From assembly GCA_018857735.1 (NCBI GenBank), contig JABMCL010003179.1:178501-242500 (forward strand): DNA of 64,000 bases. Direction: 5' to 3'. A program made the position numbers and the translations under genes. The DNA is from Alviniconcha marisindica. Its lineage: Eukaryota; Mollusca; Gastropoda; Provannidae. Shown here piece after piece: positions 31,785 through 47,840 of the stretch (the stretch's first letter is position 1; every line of letters begins with the position of its first letter). The notes below the pieces were generated by a model. That model did no database searches and was not told the origin of the DNA. It saw nothing but the letters and a program-made list of their open reading frames with translations.

Positions 31785-31988
31785 ATGTCCCCGCCCAGAT
31801 GCTGGTCTACGTCACTGCTACTGAGCGTAGCCTTGCTGACTACGGGAGCACGTGCGGCCAGCAAAAGCGACTACGACAACCTGCTGAAGGTCTTGTTCCA
31901 AAACTACTCTCGTGACGTGAGACCCGTCAACGACTTCGATACAACCACCGTCATCTACCTGGCTCTGCACCTACTCGCCATCATTGAG
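31785..31988 (+). CDS. nAChR-like subunit, exon 1
   Basis: It encodes residues 1-68. I chose the ATG at 31785 because a hydrophobic signal peptide ([15 protein letters not shown]) follows at once; an in-frame ATG at 31686 would bury it. After cleavage comes the N-terminal helix and beta-1 region ([13 protein letters not shown]-glycosylation site NYS). The donor is GAG|GTCAGT, phase 0. Confidence 0.88.
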
Positions 31989-32788
31989 GTCAGTTGCAGG
32001 CGGATGCGGTAATGGGTCAGTGTGTGTAGTGAACCCGTTGAACTGGCCCATTGGGACTTTACCAGTGTGTTGCCCTGACACCGGAAATTGGGAAATTAAT
32101 AGTGACTGGTACGTTTGAATATGATGGATACGGCAGACGCCCTTGAGAAGTGGGTAGTCCACTGTGCATTGAGTTCTTGATACAGAACATAGCATTTTCA
32201 GGGAAGTTCGATGTTGCGATAGCTCCGCCATGTCTTCCCTGAAGCAGCGAGCCCAATATTCGGTTCAAAATGCGAAAGAAAACGGCGGCTGGCTGATCTG
32301 GCCAGAGACATTCTCCATCCTGTCCGGATGTTTTCCAGTTTGGGATGGGAGTGCCGAACTAGACCAGCATCGCGATTTAAAATACGTTTTTATTGTTATT
32401 ATTACTAAAGAATTATTTCTGACTACAGCATAAGGTGAATGTACGGCGTCGACATGCGCAGTCAGTGCTTGAAGACAGCCGAAAAGAATCCGAAACTTGA
32501 ACACTCAGCCAGTAAATTTGTCCCTGCACATGCTGAGCGCATTGATTACTATCGTGTGTTAAGATGGACGCCGCTTTCCTTCTTTTAGTGCCAAGTTCGT
32601 CCTGTGTGGTTGACAGGACGTTAAACTCCCAAAATCTCTTTTCTCTTGCTGTAGAAGCGGAACCCCCCACCCAGGCCCTCCCTATGTCTTCGATGTAGAC
32701 TATTCTTTTTGCACTCAAAACTAATCGTTGTGAACTGCGTGCGTGCGTGTGTGTGTGCGTGTGTGTGTGTGTGTGTGTGCGTGCGTGC

Positions 32789-32847
<59 letters not shown>

Positions 32848-32863
32848 TGTGTGTCGTGTGGTG

Positions 32864-32898
<35 letters not shown>

Positions 32899-33636
32899 TC
32901 AACAGGTGAATGAAAATGATCAGACCCTCAAGACAAATACCATATTGGAGACAGAGTGGTAAGTTCTAGCGAGTATCTTCGTTACGATTATATGCAAGGC
33001 CACACGTTCAATGTTAATGAGCAAGCGGTGGTGTTGATGATGGTGGTGATGGTGGTGGTCGTAGCAGTAGCAGTAGTAAGAACTTGACGAGATTTACTGA
33101 ACTCAACAAAATCAGGAAAAACTCGAATGAAGAACAAGCGGTAAAAAACAAGGAAAACGTTCTCACGATAAGAAGACAGGCACAAAAGATACCCTTTTTT
33201 CTTCTTCTTTCTTTTAAACACTACGACATTTCGACAGATAATTATGTCTTTATCAGATACTACGACATTTCGACAGATAATTACGTCTTTATCAGATACT
33301 ACGACATTTCGACAGATAATTATGTCTTTATTAGATACTACGACATTTCGACAGATAATTACGTCTTTATCAGATACTACTACATTTCGACAGATAATTA
33401 TGTCTTTATCAGATACTACGACATTTCGACAGATAATTATGTCTTTATCCGATACTACGACATTTCGACAGATAATTATGTCTTTATCCGATACTACATT
33501 TCGACAGATAATTATGTCTTTATCAGATACTAACGCAGAAGAAGACAGCCAAAGGGAAAAGAAATCAAATGGCTGTTTCTTTTTTATTAATTATAATTTT
33601 ATATATATATTTTAAATCTCTCTCTCTCACTTAATG

Positions 33637-33712
<76 letters not shown>

Positions 33713-35043
33713 TTTTATTTTTATTTTTCTTATTTTTTTCTGATGAAGATATTTCTGTAGACGTTTTCCTTGTTCTTTAGCCGTCCAGCAAAAACAAGAC
33801 AAACGAAGAAGTGGATACTCTCGGTGCTAAGTACTAGGCCTACCACAGTTCTTCAGCACAGCTCCACAGAACCAAGTAGAGGAACCGTTCTTCGCCTTTT
33901 TTCTTTTTCTAATAATAATTATAATAACAGCGAGTGATAATAATAGTAACAGTGATAATATACAACAACGAATAGTAACAACTGATGATGATAAAAAATA
34001 ATGGAACAACTGTGATGAGCACAGTGCGCTCGCTTTACAATAGCGATATACAGAAGCGAAAATCATTAGTATCATCTACCATAAATCTTCTGTGATCGGG
34101 CATGATTCTGCCTCAAATAGTCAGTCCGGAGGTTTGGATGAAGGTTGTGGTTTTTAGGTCCTCCGTGTTGCGCCGCAGCTGTTGTTGCGGAGTTGTTCTA
34201 TGGGCCACTGCCGTGAAGAGTGGCCAGAATGTAGAACGTGCTCGTCTGACGTAGGCAGTTTTCAGTGTGTTAGTTAGCTCTAGTCGGCACAGGTGTTGGT
34301 ACAGGCGAAAGATGGTGGTCTGTTGCTGCCGTTTAGGGCGGTCAATCGGGTGCTTCCGGCTTTCTAGGACTATAGGAATGTTCGTTTGATGTTTTTTGCC
34401 TCTCTGAAGGAGATGGGGTGTTGTGGCTGCTGTAGTCTGCTTCCTGCCTTTGCCAAGGAGTCTGCCTGCTCATTTCCCCAGATACCGCAATGAGCAGGGA
34501 TCCACTCTAGTGTAACTGGCATGGGGCATGCCAGCCCTGTCACCACCTGCATGATCTTTCCGGTCAGATGGTCAGCAGGCCGCTGGAGGCTTTCTGTCCG
34601 GGACTGACAGTCTGTAAGGAAGACCACGTGAGATGGTGGAGGGTTTCTTCTCTGGTGATCTTTGCTGCCTCCATAAGTACGATGATGATGACTCGAATAA
34701 AATGAATTCGATGGCTGTAGCAACAACCAAAATGATGACGAGAAAAAGGTACAGCAGATGACGGCGATGACCGAAGAGACCGACAGATACAGCGAAAACC
34801 GCGGGGACGACGACACCAACGACGTTGCAATGTAACCATACTTTTAGGGACGACGAGTACCTGTCGTGGACCGCGGCCGATCACCAGAACATCTCCTCCA
34901 TCCTGATGAGACAGGTCCGGCTCTGGCTGCCGGATATCGTGGTGGGCAACACCGTATCCACACAGAAGGAGCTAGGCTACGATAATCTCAAGGTATCTTC
35001 AATTGTCTGTCGTAGCGCACTTCCGAAGGACAGACACCGAGCA

Positions 35044-35128
<85 letters not shown>

Positions 35129-35439
35129 TGTTGTGTGTGTGTGTGTGTGTGTGTGTCATTTTCATTGTGTCATTAGCAGATTTGTTACTTATAGTGTGTT
35201 ACATTTTGTTTTATTTTGAGTTTGAGATGACCTTCACGGATGATTGGGTATCAAATACGATGTAACTAACTGTCCCCTGCCCTGTTCGACTTTGAACAGT
35301 TGCGAATCCAGCAAAGTGGAACAGTGTTGTGGAGCCCTTCTGGGATCTTTGAAACAGCGTGTAACATTGACATCACATACTACCCCTTTGATACCCAGGT
35401 AGGTATCAAGCTAGCCAATGGTAACCTCTAATAGGTTTG

Positions 35440-35520
<81 letters not shown>

Positions 35521-38500
35521 GCAGATAACCGTTGTTTATCACAACATATGTAAAATGTATTAAGTGCTGGATAAAACTGACCAGATTACCAATGACAAGA
35601 ATATGTAGACAGGCATATGAAATGCTTTTGCTACAATACGAAGCGGGCAAACAGAATTGGTTAAAAGCTGTTTTGGTGGAAAATGGGTTTGGTATTGTCT
35701 GGTTGTGCCAAAGTGTTGGCTATGAGACACATTTTATAGCTGAATTTAAAGACATGCTTATTTGCTGCTACAAGCAAAACTGGCATTCGGAGATGGAAAA
35801 TGCGCCTTGAAGCTGAAAAATATTTAATGTGCATTACAAACAAATGGTTGCGAGGTATGTTTGCTGGGTTTAGATTAAGAGCGTGTGGACGTAAAAGTCA
35901 CAATGGTTTACCACCGAACAACAGGGAGACTTTACCTGCCCAATGTGTGGTCAGGAGAGAGAAGATAAAATACTCTTTGTTTTTCATTGTCAGGACTATA
36001 GACCTGCGAAAGAATTACGGCATATTTGACTCATCTACAGTTCAATCCGGTATAAACTATTTGTTAAGCAATGTCGTGCAGAAAAGACAAAGCTAGCTTC
36101 ACATCCACACGCTCATTTACGTAATCACAACGTACAACTAAACTTAAATCAGTACAGGGACAGCTACCCCTCAACATCCCCCTTACTTTAAATACGATTA
36201 CCTATCAAATAAAATGTACTCATTCAGAACTGGCGCTGAATAATGATCAAATAAAATATATATAAAACAATGTTTAAAAAGAAAATGAGTAACTTAAAAT
36301 GAATTCACCTTCATGTACAAAAGATTAACTGATATTTATAACCCCTTTCCTTGGGAAATAAATAAATACTAATCCTCAGTTTTCACCCTATTCCTTCTAT
36401 GCACAAATCTAAAAAAAATAAGCCAAAGACAAAATAATGCTCATCACCACTTAGCAGTCTAGGCAACAACAGTATACATTCTTATCCTTCCGTTATCCTT
36501 CTAAAACTGTCTTAGACTCTTACTGTCTTGGGACTGTAAACCAAAAAATGAATTTCCTTTCCCATAGTTTCTCCAGTTATGTTTGACATAACCTACACCT
36601 CACCCCTTTCTCCATAATATTCAGTTTCCTTAAAATATATATGTATATAAAATAATACAAACAACAACAGAAAAGTAGAAATTATTCACATAATGAAAAT
36701 TAAATTTAAAAATAAAATTATAAACAAAATAAAGCTTTATTATATATTAGACTACAGTTAAAGGTCTGGTCCAATACAAAAATGCTCTTCCAGCTCAAAT
36801 GTGTTCAGTTGGTAGGTACATTAAAAGTCAGTGTCGTAGTCGGTCATCCACTTTGGTCTGCGACGTGTTCGCTGTGAACGCATTGGTGTATCCAGTGTAC
36901 TGGAAGGCTCTTCCGAGTCTGGTGAACTGGCGGCCGGTGTAGTGTTCACACTCTTCCCAACACCCTCAGGTTCTCCTGGGCTCTGCTGCCAGTCCCTCGT
37001 CTGGTCCTGTGGTTCTGGAACATTCCAGATGCAAGTGGGTCGAATGTGCGCTCTGTTTCTTTGGTACACACCAGCAGTGTCGCCTTCTATGATGTAGGAT
37101 CGTCCTCTTTCTCCACCTCTGTCCCTCCAAGTGCTGGACACTGGTTGTCCGGCTTGGAGTGGAACCAGGTCTCTTGCACGTCTGTTGTAGCTTTGCCTCA
37201 CGGTCTGTTGCCTTCGGGTACGTCTCTTCTGTGCCATTGCTGACTGCTTCTTGTTTACTGGTCGGTTTGTGACCGCTGGAAGTCTGGTTCTTGTCAGTCG
37301 TCCAAACATCAGCTGTGCAGGACTGAGGCCAGTGTCCTGCTAAGGGGTGTTCCTGAGCTCCGGCAGAGCTTCATAAACATCAGTGCCATCTTGCAGACAC
37401 TAGTACATCATGTGCTTGACAGTCTTTACAGCTGCTTCGGCTTTTCAATTGGACTGATGATGACCTGGCGACGACATGGTGTGAACAATGCCCCACTTGT
37501 TGACCATGCTGTGGAATTGAGTGGAGGTGAACTGAGGGCCCTGATCTGAAACGATTTCAGATGGAATACCATATTGGGCAAAATGAACTTGAAGCTTGAT
37601 GATGACGTCCTTGGCTGTCCTGCTGGTACTCGTTTCAGTCGGCCTCGATGAAAGAAGAGAAGTAGTCAACTGTCACGAGGTACTGCCGTCCAGCCAGTTC
37701 AAAGAGATCAATCCCAACTTTCACCCATGGGCTCTGGCCATTGCTGTGCTGCCTCAACGTTTCTTTCTGGTTGTGGGGCTTCATCCGCTGGCATGCCTCA
37801 TAGTGTTCTGCTGTCTGCTTTATGTCTTGGGCCATACCTGGCCAGTACAACAGCTCTCGTGCTCGTCTCAACATGCTGTCATAGCCAAGATGGGCAGAGT
37901 GCAGTCTCTTCTTCATTTCACTTCTCAGAGTGAACGGAATCAGGATTCCCTCCCCCTTCAGGATGATTCCATCTTGATGACTCAGCGTGTCACGGATATC
38001 AAAGTACAGACGGATGGGTTCAGGGACGTCACTCTTCCTGGCTGGCCATCCTTCGTCAATGAATTGAAGGTGTGTCTGTAGAACCGGATCTTTTTGCGTT
38101 GCTTCACGGACCTCCTGTGTTGTCTTGTCTGGGACGTCTAGCAAAGAGTTCATCGCCATCACACGAACATCAATCCCAGGATCAGGAAGAAAAGCACGAC
38201 TCGAGGTGTCTGCAATGAAGAGTTGGCTGCCTTGTATATACTGGAAGGTCACGTCGTATCTGTGCAACCTCATCATCATCAGTGCCTGGATACGGCGGGA
38301 TGCTTGGCTGAGCGGTTTCTTCAAGATGGTAGCCAGTGGTTTGTGGTCATTCTGGATATGCACCTTCCGTCCGTATGTATACTGGTCGAAACGTTCAAGC
38401 CCAAACACCAGTGACAGTGTCTCCTTCTCAATTTGTGCCCATTTCTGCTCCTCTTGGGTGATCGCCCTCGATGCAAACTCAATTGGCCTGCTACCCTGAA

Positions 38501-41500
38501 GAATTGCTGCCCCAAGACCATCTTTGCTGTTGTCTACTTGCAGCACTAGTTCTTTCTCTGGGTCAAAGTACGCCAGTACAGGAGTGTTGGTGACTTTCCT
38601 CTTCACAGCATTCAGTGCCTCATCAGACTCTCGGGACCAGTTCCACACGCTGTCCTTCTTTGTCAATGCCCTGATTGGTTCCAGATCACTGGCGAGGTTT
38701 GGCATGAATTTGGCCATGCCACAAAGTCTTCGAACTCCGTGGTGGTGGTGGTGGCATGTCAAGGATTGCTGCAACCTTCGACCGATCCGGTTGAACTCCT
38801 TCTGCTGAAATCCTGTGGCCCATGAAGGAGATCTCGTCTTGATGAATGGCTGCTTTCGCGTCATTCAATTTGATGTTCTTTTCCTTGCATCTGTTCTGGA
38901 GGCCACTGAGGTTTTCAGAGTGGTCCTTTTCTGCCTCGGCTTGAGTGTCTCCACGTCCAACTACGATGATATCATCTGCCACACAGATGACTCCCTTCAG
39001 CCCATCCAGTGCCTCGGTGAGACGTTTCTGAAAAATCTCACTGCTTACTGACAGCCCAAAGGATAATCGTGCCCAGCGAAACCTGCCAAAAGGTGTGATC
39101 ATGGTTGTCAGCAAACTCGACTGTTCAAACGCACATGCCAGAAAGCTTCTTTCACATCAAGCTTTGTGAAGACTCTAGCGTTGTGGAGGCTGGGCAACAC
39201 ATCTTCCAAGGTTGGCATTTTGAAATGTTCACGCATCAACACTGCATTCAGTGGCTGGGGGTCAATACAAATTCTCAAGGATCCATCTGATTCCTTCCGT
39301 GTGACAGCCATCAGGCTGACCCATGCTGTTGGTTCTTCAACTCTGACAAGGACGCCTCTCTCAACCAGTTCGTTGACCTGCTGACGCACTTCTTCTTGAA
39401 GAGCAATAGGTATGCGACGGCAGGGGAGGACTCTGGGGCGTGCATCAGGGTTGATCCGTAGTTTAGCTTCACCAAGATCTCCCAATGACTCCTTGGTGAC
39501 TGATGCAATGAAAGCGTGCTTGTTGATGGTGACTAGTCCCAGTGCTTGGATCTCGTAGAAGGGTCAGCGTGTCACAAGATAACAACTTAAGAGTTGGAAG
39601 CATTATATTTTCTTCAAATACCATGTCAGGAATCTCGGGGTCTGTCGATCGACGCTACTCTGTCTGTGGTGAAGTATCAGTATTGACCACATCTGTCGTT
39701 CAGCATATCTCGAGATCAGGAAAATTAGCTCTATCCGCCGTCTCCTGACGACGAAAGCCACTGCTCAGCTGTTTTCTTTTGTTCTCAGTCGGCTGGGTTT
39801 CTGCCACAGAATATAAACATCTCAATAAACAAGAGTGCTGCGATGTGTTCTTTCGTTCTAATTTGTTCAGGTCTGTACCATCGTATTCAAGACTTCGATG
39901 TCTGTCAAGAGTGAGGTCTTTGTCTACATCGACAAAACCAACCCCATAGACGTCTCCAGCTTTTCGTCCAACGGCTTGTGGGACTTGCTGAACACATCCG
40001 CTCAGAACCTCGGTGAGGACGACGACGACTCCAAAACCAGAATCAGCTTCAAGGTATTATCAGCTGTGGTAGTAGCCCTTCATTTACGTGGGGCGCTTTC
40101 TGGTGTTATTGTTGTTATATAAAAATAAATAAAAAGTATATATATATATGAGTAATTGCTCTAAGCCTTGTTCTAAAACCAATTATTGTTGGGGGCAAAG
40201 ATAGACAGGCAGATAGGTTGGTAGGTAGGTAGACAAATTGATACTTGATATTGCAAAGGGCCCACCACCGCCAACCAACAAGTCAGATAACGTGCAGCGT
40301 TGACACGTCATCTTATTGGGCGATTCAGCGAAGCTGGTTTGCTAGAGTGAATGCGCTTTGTAGTCTTTCGCGCAACTTGAGAAGTCGCAGCGCACTTCCG
40401 GGCCGATTTCTGAGTAGGCGTTGCTTCACGCTGTGTAAAACCGTGGAAGTTGAACCTAGAATCGCGAAGCAGTACAAATGCCAATACTGTTGCAGTTGTA
40501 AAAATACCGTGGAACGGGGATGATGGGTGAAAAAAAAAGTGTCTGCGTCAGTCGTTTTTTGGCTGACCAGAAGATCGCGAGTTCGTAGAAAAAAATGCGT
40601 TTTGGGGCATCCTATAGCACGAGCAACAAGTTATTGCTTATTGCCAAACACATTACGACTTCGGGCCTCCAAAAATGCCTTTAAAGTTGTCAGTGTAAAA
40701 TTCGCAAATTCACTGACACCGCCTTCCATTGTGAAGAAAGTACGTACCGGAAGTAAAAGCAGCCAAGGGACTTAAGCGATGCCGGCCAAAAGTCAAGGGA
40801 GTTAACAACCCTGCCTGAATCGCCCAATATAAAGAAGACTTTATGCTCACATATCACAATCGTTTGAATCGAGACAGAACTCTTTTTTTTTTACCCGGGG
40901 TGGATGGGCCTCATATTTACGTGCATGCTTGGGCGCTGTGTTGCTCTCTACGTTTGGCCTAGCGGTAAGGCGGTAGGCTGGTAAGCGGAAGGACCTCGGT
41001 TCGATACCGCTTCGGCTCTCCTTTCTCTTCAAAAAGGTTGTGGTTTGTGAACACTGTCTTGTGACTTTGTCCATCACTTCCTACTGAAACATTAAAATGG
41101 CTCTCATCGCTGCCCATCTTAATGCAGAAGTCATTCTGGTGGTGACAGTGTAGCGACAGGTATATAATCTCCCTCTTCCCCCACCTCCATACCCCCTTCC
41201 CCCCCTCCCTAATAAGCCGTACGGTTTCTGTGGACGTTAAGCACCATGTTTACTTACTTACTCACATATCCCCCTCATAGTTCAGGAGCTGTGTGAGAGT
41301 CGAGGTGGCCGTCCTGGGCTGTGCTTCCTAACGAGCCTTCTGGTTTCCGTGGACGTAAAGCAATATTGAACCATGCTTCGGCATTGGTCTCAACTTGTCC
41401 CTAATATGTCAGCCGACATCCGAGGACATTAAGCAACACAACCGAACCGAATGTACCTCCCGATGATGCTGATGGACAAATGGTAGCTCAAATAGCCTAT

Positions 41501-44244
41501 CTTAGTCTTCATCAGCAAACGCCATGTCTTCTTATTGCAAAATCGTTGCTGGTGCTGCTGACAGTTCCCTCACGATGAGTCCCGGGAGAGGCTCTAAGCT
41601 AACCAGACTTTGCCCAAACAAGAATATGTGAAAATCTATCATTGTCGCGACAAACACGTGTTTGTCGTGACAGAACTTTTGTCGCGACAAAAATGATACT
41701 TGTGGCACTCCCTCCAATGATAAAAATCATGATCATGATAGCGTCTTTTCAGCCAATGGGAAGGACTGCCGTCAGGTATGTCATTTACCGCATTAAGGGC
41801 AGGTAAGGGGTTAATGTATTGTTTTAGTCTGGGTCTGAAAGCGAGCCGTTTCGGTTGTATGTCGGAGGAGGACCCTCCGAACTTCATGCGGTCGGACCCA
41901 TCCGTCTTAAATGTAATAGCTGCCAGACAGTACAGCCAAAAATGACATGGAGGTGACATTGGAAATCAACTCGAAGGTAACCACCATTTCTGCTTGGTAC
42001 ATAGCACCATTTGCAAAGTGTGTGTGCGTCCAAATGGCGGGCGCTTATTGCCGGCTGGCGGATGCGGTTCATCCGTTTGGAATATACCACGCTGTATTTT
42101 GAGTGGACAGACTGAAACCGACGCCGTACAGCCATGCTGACACATATCAGTTTGAGACCAGGTTCGGACAGTCCTCCTGTACCACACGCCTGAAACGGCT
42201 CGTGTATCAGCGCCTGTCTTTTAGGCTCGGGCAAAGTAACATTTAATCCTGTTTCTTGATCTTGTGTGTGTGTGTGTATGTGTGTGTGTATGTGTTCAAC
42301 CAGCTTCAGCTTCAACGCCGTCGCAGCTTTTACATCCTCAATATCATCCTTCCCGTCCTCTTCCTGTCGGTGACGTCATCGCTGACGTTCGCGTTGCCAA
42401 GCGACGCTGGAGAGAAGATGGGTCTGTCCATCACGGTGCTGCTGGCCTATGCCGTCTACCTCACCCTGGTCACCGACTCTATGCCAGACACCTCTGTGCA
42501 GGTGACAGCAGTGCTGTTGTGGTTACTATTGCCATGGCCGTGAAGTTCTTTATTATCGTTGTGGTCACAGCCAGTTCCGTCAGCATCGTCATTCACATCC
42601 TCATTATTGCCATGTTGGTGGCGCGCATAATAATCGTCGTCGATATCATTGACAACAGTAACAGAGTAAGAACATGGAAAAAGAGTGTGCTGTAGTGATA
42701 GTGGCGTCGTCACCACTCCCAGTGGTAGACCAGTGCATTATTACTATTGATCGCTTTTACATAGCACTTGGTGCTGACGGTGTACCTCGTGTTGTCTTTA
42801 CAGATCTCTGCCTTAAAGGTGCACCTGGTGTTCTTTTTTCAGATCTCAGTACTGATGGTGTACCTGGTGTTGTTACTACAGATCTCGGGGCTGATCGTGT
42901 TCCTGGTGTTGTCATTACAGATCTCGGTGCTGAAGGTGTACCAGGTGTTGTCATTTCAGATCTGAATGCTAATGGTGTACTGGTGCTTTTATTACAGATC
43001 TCGGCCCTGTTTGTCATTACAGATTTCGGCCCTGAAGGTGTACAGTACCCAATGCTGTCATCACAGATCTCAGTACTGATGGTGGACATGGTGTTGTCAT
43101 TACAGATCTCAGTGTTGACATGTACCTGGTGTTGTCATTACAGATCTCAGCATCGTCATTCACATCCTCATTATTGCCATGTTTAGTACACCACCATTAC
43201 GTTGGTGGTGCGCATAATAATCCCTGGTGTACCTGGTGTTGTCATTGCAGATCTGTGCTGACGGTGTACCTGGCGTTGTCATTGCAGATCTCAGTGCTGA
43301 CGGTGTACCTGGCGTTGTCATTGCAGATCTCAGTAATGATGGTGGACCTGGTGTTGTCATTACAGATCTCAGTGCTGACGGTGTACCTGGTGTTGTCATT
43401 ACAGATCTCAGTGCTGACGGCGTACCTGGTGTTGTCATTACAGATCTCAGTGCTGACGGTGTACCTGGTGTTGTCATTACAGATCTGTGCTGACGGTGTA
43501 CCTGGTGTTGTCATTACAGATCTGTGCTGACGGTGTACCTGGTGTTGTCATTACAGATCTCAGTGCTGACGGCGTACCTGGTGTTGTCATTACAGATCTC
43601 AGTGCTGACGGTGTACCTGGTGTTGTCATTACAGATCTGTGCTGACGGTGTACCTGGTGTTGTCATTACAGATCTCAGTGCTGACGGCGTACCTGGTGTT
43701 GTCATTACAGATCTCAGTGCTGACGGTGTACCTGGTGATGCTTCTGGCAGTGACGGCTGCCAGTGTCGTCCTATCTGTCCTCATCCTTCGCTTCCACCAC
43801 AGACCCAACTCCTCCCCAGTCACCGGTTGCCTGGCAAGCTTCACGCTGGCGCTGAGGAGGGTGCTGTGCATGGGGGAATTTCAGCCTGGAGCCGGGGAGG
43901 AAGAACGCAGTGGAGGACAAGGTGTGCAAGACAAAGAAAGGGGTGGTAAAAGTCCCGCCAACGTGAAGTTGGCCGACTCCCTGATGCTTGGACAGACCCA
44001 AGACGGCGTGGTGAAGCGCCACACGAAGAACTCGGTCAGTCCTGAAGGGTCATGGATGGGTTCTGTACCGCCGCTGACCCGCCACGAGAAGAGGAGCTCT
44101 GTGAGCGGGCCAATGGCAGCTGAGACATTGGACAAGTTCATCTTTCTGCTCTTCACCTTCATCAGCTTGGGCAGCACTGCCATCTGTCTGATTGTTCTTA
44201 TCGTTGGTGCCACGCAACAGGAAAAAGACACCTCGTTGACATGA
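31785..44244 (+). CDS. Nicotinic acetylcholine receptor-like Cys-loop subunit (7 exons, 471 aa)
   Basis: This entry spans the whole gene, introns included; exons are listed separately and all phases agree. The product would be one subunit of a pentameric ligand-gated cation channel in the plasma membrane. Visible features are a signal peptide ending near residue 24, the loop WLPDIVV, and a Cys-loop with exactly 13 residues between cysteines ([15 protein letters not shown]). Then come M1, M2 ([16 protein letters not shown], with Glu at -1' and Leu at 9'), M3, a cytoplasmic loop of only about 110 residues, M4 and a short C-tail. The vicinal Cys pair of alpha subunits is absent, and the loop B tryptophan is not at its usual place, so it is a non-alpha or divergent lineage-specific subunit. 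Invertebrate nAChR families are large and I do not assign an orthologue. Confidence 0.92.
32588..32640 (+). mobile_element. Possible stem-loop retroposon tail related to families B/C
   Basis: GTCCTGT..GGTTG..ACAGGAC is followed by GTTAAACTCCCAAAA, the same architecture as the family B/C 3' end. No target duplication was recognised. Confidence 0.45.
32738..32899. repeat. (GT)n/(GCGT)n microsatellite
   Basis: The run ends six bases before the exon 2 acceptor, so length change here could affect that splice site. Confidence 0.96.
32906..32958 (+). CDS. nAChR-like subunit, exon 2
   Basis: 53 nt: [18 protein letters not shown], the beta-2 strand, leading to the Trp codon split across the intron (phase 2). 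The acceptor (TTCAACAG) comes directly after a long GT/GCGT microsatellite. The donor is TG|GTAAGT. Confidence 0.88.
33220..33533. repeat. 39-bp tandem repeat, eight copies (intron 2)
   Basis: Units read 'tactacgacatttcgacag' then 'ataattatgtctttatcaga'; the last is 36 bp. The complement (gataaagac..gtcgaaatgtcg) resembles the 3' motif of Penelope-like elements. A similar 'ctgatgaaga..gtagacgttttccttgttct' occurs at ~33739-33780, and its inverted partner at ~33120-33165, so the array sits in a foldback. Confidence 0.85.
33642..33708. repeat. (TA)n microsatellite
   Basis: Pure TA run inside intron 2. Confidence 0.97.
34080..34700 (-). mobile_element. LINE relic with RNase H domain (intron 2, antisense)
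   Basis: The minus strand contains [25 protein letters not shown], the C-terminal RNase H motif of I/Jockey-type non-LTR elements. It is followed by a decayed C-terminal segment (~34090-34370: [18 protein letters not shown]) with frameshifts. The RT part is not present. Confidence 0.8.
34848..34992 (+). CDS. nAChR-like subunit, exon 3
   Basis: 145 nt, completing W and encoding DDEYLSW.. to GYDNLK. It holds the WLPDIVV motif conserved in Cys-loop receptors and an NIS glycosylation site. The acceptor is CTTTTAG, the donor AAG|GTATCT, phase 0. Confidence 0.9.
35046..35156. repeat. (GCGT)n/(GT)n microsatellite
   Basis: About 110 bp of GCGT then GT, inside the short intron 3. Confidence 0.97.
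35300..35398 (+). CDS. nAChR-like subunit, exon 4 (first half of Cys-loop)
   Basis: 99 nt, phase 0, ending at ..[13 protein letters not shown]. The first Cys-loop cysteine is here; the second lies in the next exon, 4.5 kb away. The donor is CAG|GTAGGT. Confidence 0.93.
35438..35519. repeat. (CT)n microsatellite
   Basis: Pure CT run about 40 bp after the exon 4 donor. Confidence 0.97.
35555..36095 (+). mobile_element. LINE C-terminal relic (intron 4)
   Basis: Frames such as [40 protein letters not shown] and [20 protein letters not shown], then a decayed Cys/His motif region, form a familiar non-LTR retroelement C-terminus. The pieces are in different frames and no RT core remains. Confidence 0.75.
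36096..36820. other. AT-rich intron 4 sequence
   Basis: It might hold the 3' LTR of the antisense gypsy relic, but no matching second LTR exists in the window. Confidence 0.35.
36821..39510 (-). mobile_element. Ty3/gypsy-type LTR retrotransposon relic, antisense in intron 4
   Basis: On the minus strand the pol domains are in canonical order, with frame breaks. The RT start (39108-39485: [15 protein letters not shown]) precedes the RT catalytic part (38686-39114: [24 protein letters not shown]). RNase H (to ~38250: [20 protein letters not shown]) follows, then the zinc-binding and core integrase (37635-38000: [23 protein letters not shown]) and the integrase continuation (37445-37669: [12 protein letters not shown]). 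A basic C-terminus ends at 36832. The RT-RNase H-IN order and the IADD/VADD type box fit K02A2.6-like gypsy elements. Gag, protease and LTRs are missing or unrecognised. Frameshifts near 39108, 38740, 37650 and 37400 and in-frame stops make it inactive. Confidence 0.92.
39871..40053 (+). CDS. nAChR-like subunit, exon 5 (second Cys-loop cysteine, loop C)
   Basis: 183 nt, phase 0, from [12 protein letters not shown] to SKTRISFK. The loop C region ([15 protein letters not shown]) has no vicinal cysteines and no binding tyrosines. The acceptor is TTTGTTCAG, the donor AAG|GTATTA. Confidence 0.92.
40856..40945 (+). repeat. Dispersed repeat F fragment (intron 5)
   Basis: Matches 'cgtttgaatcgagac.gaact' and 'ggggtggat..ttacgtgc' of the copies at 5640 and 17845. 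Confidence 0.75.
40951..41272 (+). mobile_element. Full-length-looking tRNA-derived SINE with family B tail (intron 5)
   Basis: The tRNA-like head has A-box TGGCCTAGCGG (40957) and B-box GGTTCGATACC (40998). A body shared with 13350-13505 follows, then a C/T-rich tract, the stem-loop CCCTCCC..GGTTTC..GGACG, GTTAAGCACCATG and (TTAC)n. This suggests the shorter family B copies are 5'-truncated versions of such a unit. No target duplication is obvious. Confidence 0.7.
41273..41450 (+). mobile_element. SINE-like element, family E (copy 3)
   Basis: It follows directly on the (TTAC)n tail of the preceding SINE, as if inserted into it. It carries both stem-loops and ends ATTAAGCAACACAACC. Confidence 0.8.
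41643..41672. repeat. 30-bp palindrome centred on CACGTG
   Basis: TGTCGCGACAAACAC pairs with GTGTTTGTCGTGACA, one mismatch. A third TTGTCGCGACAAA follows at 41680. Confidence 0.9.
42304..42501 (+). CDS. nAChR-like subunit, exon 6 (M1 and M2)
   Basis: 198 nt, phase 0. It encodes [18 protein letters not shown] (start of M1) through M2 and PDTSVQ. M2 keeps Glu at -1', Lys 0', Thr 6', Leu 9' and Val 13', and has Asp at 20', a cation-channel pattern; Gly at 2' is unusual. The acceptor CAG follows a GT microsatellite, and a second CAG six bases downstream is a possible alternative. Confidence 0.93.
42771..43710 (+). repeat. Tandem array of duplicated exon-7 3' splice sites
   Basis: Each unit is CAG + ATCTCAGTGCTGACGGTG.. 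+ a short pyrimidine-containing stretch. It reproduces the exon-7 acceptor and its first ~36 coding bases. CAG(A)TCT motifs start at 42801, 42840, 42879, 42918, 42957, 42995, 43020, 43064, 43103, 43141, 43248, 43285, 43324, 43363, 43402, 43441, 43480, 43517, 43554, 43593, 43632, 43669 and 43708. Spacing is mostly 39 bp, with 37-bp units at 43248, 43480, 43517 and 43632. Upstream copies are more diverged. A copy of intron sequence from ~42585-42640 interrupts at 43148-43225. Confidence 0.95.
43711..44244 (+). CDS. nAChR-like subunit, exon 7 (M3, cytoplasmic loop, M4, stop)
   Basis: 534 nt including TGA at 44242. M3 is [20 protein letters not shown].. ending LRFHHRP, the usual HHR boundary. The cytoplasmic loop is short, Gly/Ser/Glu-rich and poorly conserved. 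M4 is [20 protein letters not shown]. The 3' splice site is the last of at least 23 tandem copies of itself (42771-43710). The choice of 43711 rests on phase and on continuity of M3 with the family. Confidence 0.9.
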   Translation: MSVLTVYLVMLLAVTAASVVLSVLILRFHHRPNSSPVTGCLASFTLALRRVLCMGEFQPGAGEEERSGGQGVQDKERGGKSPANVKLADSLMLGQTQDGVVKRHTKNSVSPEGSWMGSVPPLTRHEKRSSVSGPMAAETLDKFIFLLFTFISLGSTAICLIVLIVGATQQEKDTSLT

Positions 44245-45606
44245 TTCTTGCAGACAGCTTGAAGACACTCACAGAAGTGCGCCTGTGTGTGTGTACAGAC
44301 ACAGATACAGGCACACACACACACACATACACGTGCCCACACTCTTGGGCACCCACACACAAACACGTGTTTGTTCGTCTATGGCCAAAACATTTCCGTT
44401 GGTATTTTCTTGGACACGATTTTATTGAAACATTTTAATTTGAATATGGCTCTGTTATTTGCCATTATGCATTGTGCAACATTTATGTTTTGTTTTTAAT
44501 AATTGTTTCTGCCTATTCATTTATTTTCATATTTTATAGGCATATTCTAGTTTGTATTGTAGCACTGATATTTGCCAATAATCATTTTATATAACATTTT
44601 AAATTTTATTGCCCTATGTGGTTGACTGGGTTCAAAGCAAAAGCTAATTTTATTGTTGTTTCTGTCCATTCCTTTAAAAAAATCTTCGAGTACTGATAAA
44701 TAAACAGAATTGTCAAAAGTATAAGCATATCCTTGGAAGCTTTTTATCAGTGGTAATATTGGTGGGACTAAATCTTTCAAAATTTGTGTCTGATGCTTGT
44801 ATGTGTCATAGGTTAAAGTTTGTTTCATATTTCTGAATGGACTGATTTTGTGGATTTGACTTGAGAAAAGGTTTAATAATAATAAAAAATAATTTATGTA
44901 GTTGTACAGCACAAATTCTTGTCCACAGAGACACACTGTTCTAAGCACATACCTGCACACATACACACAGGCACCAGCCCACACGAGCATACTTACTACA
45001 TATATATAAGAAGAGTTTTCAGTTCTATTCAGTAACACTTCGTTCATACCACCCTCAAGGGGCAATTCCATCTGATGGGCTCATAAAGACAAAAAATTAA
45101 AACAACGATAATACGAACAGATAAAGTACACAGGTAAATAACTTGGAACACTAATCATAGTTATGGCAGCAACCAACCATTACATGGAAATACAAGAAGC
45201 TGCCAACACAAAGTGAACAATATCATTTGATCAAATCAGTTCACACACAAACATGATCATTTGAATGATTAATCAAGTATATCCAAGCAGCAGTATCAGA
45301 ATGTGTTGCTGAAAAAAAGAAAGAAAAACGGCAGCCACCTTCACAAGGTAACTACAGCCGCAGAACCGACAAGCTACACATTGGGGATCTCAAAAGTTCC
45401 TTCTCTACTACACCACTGTTTGTATGCTTGTCAAATGCACAAACATGGCTACATACATGAAACCATCTTTCATTATGTATCTTGTGTATATCAAGTGGAA
45501 CAACTGACTCATTTTGGGATGACAAGAGACCATTCATGGAACACTGCACTGGCAAAGGATGTTTCCAATTATTTAATGTTACCTGTTCGCATGAGCTTTG
45601 GTGACC
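44245..45606 (+). other. 3' flank / probable 3' UTR of the receptor gene
   Basis: A (CA)n run lies at ~44312-44331. AATAAA signals occur at 44699 and in the AT-rich region near 44875-44890. I see no further coding signal. Confidence 0.5.
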
Positions 45607-45610
45607 TTAA

Positions 45611-46849
45611 CCTTCGTCGTACATGATAGTGAAAATTCATCCACAAATTCACTCAAAAATTTGTAACTCAATAGATATTTGAGTTATGAAAAGGAAATTT
45701 TATGACTTTGTCAGCTACCTTTTCCCCCTTGTGCTTGCAAAATATTAGGTACATTTGGGAAAAATAAAAATTGTAAATAATAAAAACAAAAACATATATT
45801 TAACATGCCATATGTCCTGGGTGGAAATTCACCCATGTTTTCAAAGACCACCACAGGCTGTACGTAGTGGGTGAATTTTTACCCATACCAGAGGTGGCTA
45901 AACTTGAGAACTGACATGTTGGCAGATGTTGCCAGGGCCATAAACAATGGTGAGAAACCAGACTGGTAAAACCGCTGAATTTCGTCCAGAACCTCAGGTG
46001 GCTAGTGACTCTTCTTGACAATTGATAACACACAGGCATGCACACACATACACCTTCTCTCTCTCTCTGAGTGCATCTCTCTCTCTCTTTCTCTCCTATT
46101 CTGCAGATGACCCACAATGATTTGTACACAATGCAACACTAAACATCTTTACAAAGTGCTGGTTGTCCTGTACAAAGTGAGAAGAACAAAGAACTTTTTT
46201 TGAGTGGCATTATTGTAGAGTTTGCTGATCTGGAGCTAATGTGTTGTAAGCAAACGCAATAATCATTAATGAATTTGATTTTTTTCTCTCAAAAAGGTGT
46301 CCTTTGCTGTTCTTAACTATCTACTGAGTTCATATTTTTGTTTTTGCCAAGCTGATGCACAATATATATTCTCTCAGTTACTGCATTGTTAAGCTACATT
46401 GTGGCTTGGTTACCATAACAAATTGGCGCTGACAGAGAGAAAAAGAGAGAGAGAGAGAGAAGGTGTGCCACTGAATGATTTATGTAACCAACCAACTAGT
46501 TGAAGGAAAGTGCATTCAGCCCAATGAACTGTCTGAACAAATTGAGCTTTACACACCTGTGCCACAAACTGGACGAAAGAGGAAACCCCTATCATGGGTG
46601 AAATTTCACCCACAACATATGCCAAAGTTGTCTGCTATGTGAAACTCGTGGGTGAATTTTCACCCACAATGTATGCAGTGAAAGTCTCACTATGATAAAG
46701 TCATGGGTGAATTTTCACCCACAACGTACACCATGAAAGTGTTATTATGTTCAAGTCATGGGCCAATTTTTTTACCCACATGATGTTAGTGATCCTCTTA
46801 TAAAGTCAGGGTAAATTTTCACCCACAACATAGTGACGTACGGCGAAGG
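45611..46849. mobile_element. TTAA-flanked non-autonomous element, piggyBac-like
   Basis: TTAA occurs at both edges (45607-45610 and 46850-46853). The inner ends are inverted repeats: CCTTCGTCGTAC at the left and GTACGGCGAAGG at the right. This layout (TTAA target, CCTT ends) fits a piggyBac-type MITE. Subterminal sequence at both ends carries the palindrome GTGGGTGAAAATTCACCCAC-like motif, amplified at the right end (46594-46840). No transposase frame is visible. Confidence 0.7.
46594..46840. repeat. ~54-bp tandem repeat with palindromic core
   Basis: Five units each begin with 'gggtgaattttcaccca' or a close variant, at about 46598, 46651, 46706, 46759 and 46809. Single related motifs occur at 45827 and 45873 near the left end. 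Confidence 0.88.
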
Positions 46850-47840
46850 TTAAGATGACAATCTAATCAGGCATGAGAACCGCTTCAAAGGAAAAACTCT
46901 GAAAAATAAGCGGATCTGGGGGCATGCCCCACTGGAATTCTCCCCCCCCCCCCCCCCCCTCCCCCAAAAGATCAAAATTTATGCAGGCTATCCTGAGGTC
47001 ATTTGTATGGAAATAAATTTACTTTCTCATCCTCACAGACACCAACTGGAACCACTTAAGTGATGACCAGATGGACCAAATGCACTTGAGGACATCAAAC
47101 GACTGATCACTAACCAAAGCACCATCTAACTTGCACATGTGCACTCCCTTCCCATTGCATCTGTACCTAAGGTTAAATCCTGCAACGTATGAAATCAAGA
47201 TGAAGAAATAAGTTAGCAACTATAGTATAACACTACCAAACTGCATGCCTTCTTCACCTCTGCACAAACTTTCACTTCCAGCACAACTGATCTTCTGTAA
47301 AGTGACCTTCATCATATTGAAGAGTATGTCATTGTCTGGAGTTTACACAGCAGTTTAAAATAAACAACAACAACAAAAAACACTGACAAACATTCAGAAT
47401 GAGTTTCGAGTGTCTGACCAGCTTTTGAAGTGTCCAACAAAACCAATCCAGCTACTGTTTACAGACACCCACTCCCACTTCCATTTATTGGCACAGCCGC
47501 AGCTGTCAAACGTTTTCACCGTGACTGACAACTGGAGTGACAGACATGGTGAATCTTTCAAAACTTTCACAACATTCCCCTTTTCTTTGTCAAAACAATG
47601 TACAAATGACTGCCTTCAATACTAATACCTGCCCGCAAGAATAACCACCAAAGGCCGTGTTCACAATTAAAAGCGAGTAAAATAGTTAACAGCCAGGTGT
47701 GAACGCACTCCAAATGTTTTGCAAGTATTTGGTGCGGAGCTAAAACCAGTGCTTCTTTTTTTATGTACCCAATATTTTTCACTCATGGACAATTCTTTTC
47801 CCCCGCAGAAAGTCGGTTTTACTGCCAAGGAAACTGTGAT

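Follow-up and report, generated by a model that had tools for sequence, protein, structure and literature searches.

A 64,000-nucleotide stretch of the Alviniconcha marisindica genome (contig JABMCL010003179.1, positions 178,501 to 242,500, forward strand; hereafter the window) carries a gene for a nicotinic acetylcholine receptor (nAChR)-like subunit in which the 3′ end of intron 6 consists of 22 tandem copies of the exon 7 splice acceptor and the first coding bases behind it. The acceptor of exon 7 itself, at window position 43711, is the 23rd, and we call the 22 copies upstream of it decoys. With head-to-tail copies and a unit length within 10–100 bp the array is a minisatellite, and we regard it as probable that this junction-spanning minisatellite is largely a passenger that a repeat-rich genome tolerates, one that would impose a choice of splice site on the gene.

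The host gene is intact. On this contig (C2208 in our numbering of the 817.6-Mb genome) its seven predicted exons occupy 31785..44244 (Table 1), all introns are GT..AG and, given a start of exon 7 at 43711, the spliced frame encodes 471 amino acids with no inner stop. Pfam domains Neur_chan_LBD (PF02931) and Neur_chan_memb (PF02932) are both recognized, the best solved structures by sequence are acetylcholine-receptor chains and the best annotated full-length homologue is a protein of the snail Babylonia areolata (47%, with a query lacking exons 2 and 5). The gene is thus, on its predicted product, a Cys-loop/nicotinic receptor subunit gene. Alpha-type nAChR subunits are recognized by an adjacent cysteine pair in loop C, before transmembrane segment M1; the predicted 471-aa protein contains no adjacent cysteine pair (CC) and is therefore not a classical alpha subunit.

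The 23 acceptors are seen as AG/AT(C/T)T sites (the slash marks the junction) running from 42804 to 43711, and a further, more diverged partial copy can be read directly just 5′ of the array at ~42770. The 22 intronic units measure 39 bp (thirteen units), 37 bp (four), 38 bp (two), 25 bp, 44 bp and 107 bp (one each). A preliminary description of this DNA had reported at least 23 head-to-tail copies, the last being exon 7 itself, mostly with 39-bp units, and had noted that copies near the exon are almost identical and distal ones diverged; all of this agrees with our data, while its acceptor coordinates were about 3 too low, 43669 becoming 43672 and the others shifting likewise. The mean pairwise difference is 0.068 among the 12 proximal units and 0.25 among the distal ones, the latter computed on 8 of 10 units (without those of 25 bp at 42998 and 107 bp at 43144, and with the one of 44 bp at 43023 trimmed manually). 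Within the proximal block, the 115-bp segments 43405–43519 and 43557–43671 are identical. Tandem Repeats Finder (TRF) reports a period of 39 at 43226–43737 (score 884), and the 20-mer TTACAGATCTCAGTGCTGAC has 12 matches in the window at up to 3 mismatches against a maximum of 0 in 100 shuffles, which excludes chance. In a loose search of the genome with 43600–43900, which gave few candidates, matches were found on C2208 and on a second contig, C1638, only, and the repeat unit seems confined to the locus.

The standard 39-bp unit, ATCTCAGTGCTGACGGTGTACCTGGTGTTGTCATTACAG, begins with 27 bases that match the exon start and ends with 12 that match the intron end. It contains CTGAC, which fits a metazoan branch-point motif and whose A is 26 nt upstream of the G in the next AG; 17 of the 22 units have a YTNAY motif. 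With this layout the exon start of each copy would supply the branch-like motif for the next acceptor, and the standard unit is a predicted self-contained acceptor module.

By position, eight of the 22 decoys share the frame of exon 7, and seven of these run into the stop at 43528. This leaves 43672 as the sole decoy with a predicted full-length product, 13 residues longer, and the remaining 21 decoys lead to a premature stop. The frames given in the preliminary description hold after the coordinate shift: 43672 is in frame, 43557, 43596 and 43635 are out of frame, and 43288–43483 are in frame until 43528. Site strength was estimated with a home-made matrix built from 23 acceptors of this genome (18 near myosin exons, identified by eye, and 5 from the receptor gene; training median 11.6). 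The true acceptor at 43711 scores 4.1, a value equalled by 12 decoys and missed by two. Eight decoys score higher, namely 42843 (10.5), 42804 (8.1), 42998 (6.9), 42921 (6.1), 43023 (5.6), 43106 and 43251 (5.0 each) and 42882 (4.4), so that 20 of 22 reach at least the score of the true site. The AG is kept in 22/22 decoys, whether these are located by motif or by similarity, and 10/22 are identical to the true site from 20 nt before the junction to the third exon base. Each unit thus holds a splice site in what is predicted to be a usable context, and the ties together with the stronger decoys mean that local sequence does not single out 43711. If 43711 wins, signals deeper in exon 7 or the order of events should be responsible. 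The array had also been called a natural experiment in 3′ splice-site competition; this stands for the architecture, near-identical acceptors in a row, and for nothing beyond it.

Masking of sites by RNA hairpins between the self-complementary AGAUCU cores was considered and rejected. A full fold predicts AGAUCU hairpins with the true site included, and their stability is not clearly above that of shuffles (z of −0.06, −0.68, −0.77 and −1.81 for four pieces of 76–106 nt, −2.33 for one of 33 nt and 0.33 for the window unit). We also rejected a cluster of alternative exons, since the units hold only ~27 nt of exon start, without an exon end or a proper donor.

Relatives of the gene, known as proteins only, carry shorter arrays as far as their sequences reach. 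Four open reading frames (ORFs) obtained from two protein searches, P0001, P0003, P0004 and P0005, extend from exon 7 back into the array, with exon 7 identities to the window of 98%, 93%, 92% and 91%, respectively. Counted by eye, P0005 has ~4 decoys, P0004 has 3, P0001 has 5 and P0003 has 4–5, the last two being lower bounds because the ORFs begin within the array. From the intronic MEKEC start to exon 7 there are 88 codons in P0005 versus 1037 bases in the window, and the arrays of P0004 and P0005, possibly from different species, differ by one 13-residue unit. As judged from the reading frame, a 38-bp-type unit adjoins exon 7 in P0003, P0004 and P0005. Between this unit and exon 7 these three have no full unit, P0001 has one and the window has twelve plus the 107-bp unit, a series that supports what had been proposed earlier, that growth was probably recent and on the exon side. 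Two more distant proteins, P0088 and P0089 (69 and 55%), have LSLQ before the exon and are uninformative about the array. In P0010, from Batillaria attramentaria, VSYRI-type repeats lie exactly at the M2–M3 junction, perhaps a repeat at the same acceptor that was annotated as coding.

The second contig, C1638 (15 kb; matches L009/L010), repeats window 42032–46869 with an identical array. We rejected it as an independent second allele because there is no difference over 42446–44765 (2.3 kb), followed by a strongly divergent block (44766–44872) and a break in a CA-type microsatellite; it is probably the same molecule assembled twice. Such a duplication, ending in a microsatellite break, shows that the region is hard to assemble, and false expansion or a misjoin could in principle have produced the array. 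We consider an assembly artefact highly improbable: the units differ in point changes and 2-bp deletions whose order is not simple, the four relatives' ORFs on other contigs have the same kind of array, and many independent arrays exist elsewhere in the genome.

Junction-spanning arrays are not unique to this gene and occur in unrelated genes and at donors as well. Of 46 matches in a search for nAChR paralogues, five belong to the window gene or to its duplicate on C1638; L012–L041 were examined with 1.5-kb flanks, and 26 of these (L015, L016 and L018–L041) are paralogues. Acceptor arrays span the M3 junction in L038 (41-bp unit), L028 (76 bp) and L086 (90 bp) and that of the exon for M1–M2 in L041 (35 bp) and L027 (105/134 bp). 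Donor arrays follow the M1–M2 exon in L032 (45 bp, 18.5 copies), L016 (50 bp) and L027 (161 bp, with ~80 nt of exon end), so that the L027 exon (C599:127068) is flanked by arrays at both its acceptor and its donor. Probable donor arrays of a preceding exon were found in L037/L039 and L034, and in L020 an array reaches up to an acceptor. The units are unrelated to each other, each array having its own. In L016 (C1177:917578), exon 6 lies inside a 5174-aa open frame, apparently because the donor-side array stays open (~1.5 kb read).

An M3 exon search in seven further pieces located the exon in L086, L087, L088 and L090 and not in L084, L085 (mostly masked) and L089. Of the 12 M3 acceptors located, four are spanned by an array (window, L028, L038 and L086) and one is abutted (L023), by eye. 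Among ATP-binding cassette (ABC) genes, L052 has a 20-bp acceptor array and L055 a repeat beside the donor; among six myosin loci picked for long open frames, and hence biased, L064 has a 35-bp donor array and L066 a 93-bp acceptor array. Elsewhere in a myosin gene (L067, C2173:860060-861447, reversed), the end of an exon reappears, together with its donor, three times further downstream, preceded by acceptor-like sequence, like a duplicated small exon. Decoys keep their AG in 15/16 cases in L038, 11/13 in L041, 6/6 in L028, 5/5 in L027 and 2/3 in L086. The farther a decoy lies from the true site, the lower its identity to that site in L041 (rho −0.77, p 0.002), in L028 (rho −0.65, 6 decoys, p 0.16), in L086 (rho −1.0, 3 decoys) and, weakly, in the window (rho −0.30, p 0.17; an ungapped comparison that penalises the 37-bp units). 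L038 (−0.20) and L027 (+0.71) give no support for polarity, and we do not propose it as a general rule.

A uniform strict scan was applied to the junctions. For exon 6 of the nAChR genes (26 paralogues and the window) it matched 1/27 acceptors and 3/27 donors, for M3 acceptors 3/8 (counting the window and the abutting L023), for ABC genes 1/14 acceptors and 1/14 donors, and for unselected myosin exons 0/21 acceptors and 1/21 donors; the biased myosin set gave 1/6 and 1/6. The ABC sample comprises 14 of 19 loci, L042–L046 having been excluded by eye as bacterial-like or uninterrupted, and the myosin sample comes from the top 24 of 75 matches in order of E-value, of which 21 were used and three were already in the biased set, with no match in the scan. 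The counts are lower bounds since the scan misses gapped or long units (L028 and the exon 6 acceptor of L027), and its matches in L023 and L055 lie next to the true site rather than on it. All samples are limited in size, with 12 M3 acceptors located, 27 loci for exon 6, 14 ABC loci and 21 unselected myosin exons. Random 55-bp zones matched in 64/300 cases in nAChR flanks, 45/300 in ABC flanks and 27/400 in the window, array included. These random non-coding rates are similar to or above those of five of the six unselected junction groups, and do not support junctions in general as hot spots. Among the excluded loci, L043 and L045 (C705) and L042 (C620) are bacterial-looking ABC transporter matches by eye, possibly on symbiont or contaminant contigs, and one of them has an in-frame TGA as in mycoplasma-like bacteria.

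Since junctions other than M3 are not preferred and the genome is full of repeats, our reading is that a general process produced the array and that it is tolerated. It would have begun when the intron 6/exon 7 boundary (~12 nt from the intron end and 27 nt from the exon start) was duplicated in tandem, with replication slippage or unequal exchange as the probable cause. As the boundary unit would be a complete 3′ splice-site module, every duplication would yield another acceptor, and purifying selection would retain only the copy joined to exon 7. Older copies would drift upstream while new ones arise beside the exon, partly in three-unit (115-bp) steps. The array would persist because use of the last acceptor still gives a productive product, probably with the help of signals that lie further inside exon 7 and are absent from the decoys; splicing that leaks to decoys would give frame-shifted mRNA, presumably targeted by nonsense-mediated decay. 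The array would then be nearly neutral, and comparable arrays arise at many exon edges of this repeat-rich genome.

Several observations weigh against this reading. The M3 acceptors, 3/8 in the scan and 4/12 by eye, lie above the random rate, and a local hot spot there is possible, although they are few. For the random zones the scan covered AG-type sites alone, and no zone came from myosin flanks. The true acceptor is weaker than eight of its decoys and its winning is not obvious, and a full set of retained AGs is what maintained working decoys would show. In the older block, CAGATCT is the best-kept 7-mer (0.984 versus a mean of 0.836, rank 1/39, ranked without anchoring on 42771–43143; Fisher p 0.0005, uncorrected, on 8/10 units before 43251), and a kept splice core is not predicted by pure drift of dead copies.

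A rival reading is an array that is a selected splicing dial, in which decoys would divert pre-mRNA to non-productive products and set receptor dose by copy number or through site-choosing factors. Old units that differ by 25% and yet keep the AG, and keep the splice core best of all, stronger sites upstream and premature stops from nearly all decoys speak for such a dial. We nevertheless think it unlikely. The core is not specially conserved in three other acceptor arrays (ranks 15/41 in L038, 31/35 in L041 and 16/76 in L028), and as proof of selection we set core conservation aside, as it is strong in the old block of the window alone, where units are few. Arrays at unrelated genes and at donors point to a general mutational process, and junctions are not clearly enriched over background; the same architecture elsewhere, mostly no commoner than in random non-coding sequence, favours a by-product over a device. 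A broader version, that splice-junction arrays are a standing, fast-turning feature whose decoys are kept functional in some genes, this one first, with their number tuning productive mRNA, appears to us decidedly unlikely.

We give very little weight to a productive isoform, in which use of 43672 would add 13 hydrophobic residues before M3 and alter the M2–M3 linker and gating. The insertion is exactly 39 bp, in frame and stop-free, and the nearest relative, P0001, also reads a 13-residue stretch in frame beside the exon. The option is not conserved, however, as P0003, P0004 and P0005 have their 38-bp-type unit there, and in Cys-loop receptors the M2–M3 linker is length-sensitive. Just as doubtful is intronisation, whereby an upstream acceptor would be taken first and the exonic bits of units would become mini-exons or parts of new introns. 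The best pyrimidine tracts do lie at the far end, at 42804 (12/17) and 42843 (13/17). The donors that units could offer (GTGTAC, GTGTTG) are poor, the ~24 nt within a unit to the next AG are too short for an intron, and frames entered upstream meet stops. In its favour is an RNA-seq-supported precedent in the potato RNA-dependent RNA polymerase (RdRp) gene (PMC4974935). A tolerated, junction-spanning minisatellite thus remains the reading we prefer.

Table 1 Predicted exons of the host gene and parts of the acceptor array, in window coordinates
Feature	Position	Strand	Basis
Exon 1, start codon and N terminus	31785..31988	+	Open frame, GT donor
Exon 2	32906..32958	+	AG/GT, frame continues
Exon 3, ligand-binding domain	34848..34992	+	PF02931 together with exon 4, E 2.7e-18
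Exon 4, ligand-binding domain to Cys-loop	35300..35398	+	PF02931 together with exon 3
Exon 5, end of ligand-binding domain	39871..40053	+	Splice sites, frame
Exon 6, M1–M2, phase-0 donor CAG/GTGACAG	42304..42501	+	PF02932 with exon 7, E 2.3e-24
Older, diverged block, nine units (acceptors 42804, 42843, 42882, 42921, 42960, 42998, 43023, 43067, 43106)	42804..43143	+	
38-bp unit; counterpart adjoins exon 7 in P0003, P0004 and P0005, from their proteins	43106..43143	+	
107-bp unit with two-piece copy of intron segment 42580-42635 (identities 37/37 and 21/22 bases)	43144..43250	+	
Young homogeneous block, twelve units of 39 or 37 bp	43251..43710	+	TRF, unit comparison
Last decoy unit, the only one adding in-frame residues (13) with full frame kept	43672..43710	+	
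Exon 7, M3, cytoplasmic loop, M4 and stop; directly preceded by the true acceptor	43711..44244	+	PF02932, frame

Two further features of the introns were noted by eye. Intron 4 contains, on the minus strand at 36.8–39.6 kb, retrotransposon-like ORFs of reverse transcriptase/integrase type. Directly 3′ of exon 6, 42502–42660 resembles a second, diverged M3 segment after a frame change (20 residues), part of which reappears in the array at 43147–43222.

Work on how the spliceosome picks one of several identical 3′ splice sites usually relies on engineered constructs, and here one gene offers 23 acceptors whose frames make the choice readable from ordinary RNA-seq. The relatives with ~3–5 decoys are natural controls, and other junctions of the genome, donors included, are replicates. 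Annotators should take warning from the relatives' ORFs, which continue from exon 7 into the array, and from the paralogue exon within the 5174-aa open frame.

Among known systems, tandem acceptors of the NAGNAG type are likewise close, repeated acceptors at one exon, with a spacing of 3 nt; the window repeats the whole acceptor module, mostly 37–39 nt apart. The repeat unit of human IFI6 (6-16/G1P3) is reportedly 12 bp long. IFI6 is reported to contain a minisatellite that offers several splice donors (Turri et al. 1995, cited in PMC4526556) and resembles the window in having a tandem repeat at an exon edge with one splice site per unit, several of them competing. It differs in that its sites are donors, whereas here they are acceptors with a branch-like motif and exon start, and in that transcripts using repeat units have been reported for IFI6, while the sites of the window array are predicted. 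Molluscan nAChR families are large and often lie in gene arrays; what is accessible of that work describes the same family and setting and concerns gene duplication, retroposition and intron loss or gain, as opposed to splice-junction repeats (PMC6896357). In the literature searched, which lacked most subscription papers, we found no array of tandem acceptors of this kind. Another close parallel is intron gain in the potato RdRp gene by tandem duplication across an intron–exon boundary, where the duplicated piece passed branch site, tract, AG and exon start to its copy (PMC4974935). The window unit likewise spans intron end and exon start, as intron gain by boundary duplication requires; potato has two copies and a confirmed new intron, the window 23 candidate acceptors. 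On its predicted splice sites, the window array is an acceptor version of the IFI6 and potato precedents, with many more copies than in potato and with counterparts recurring at other exon edges of the same genome.

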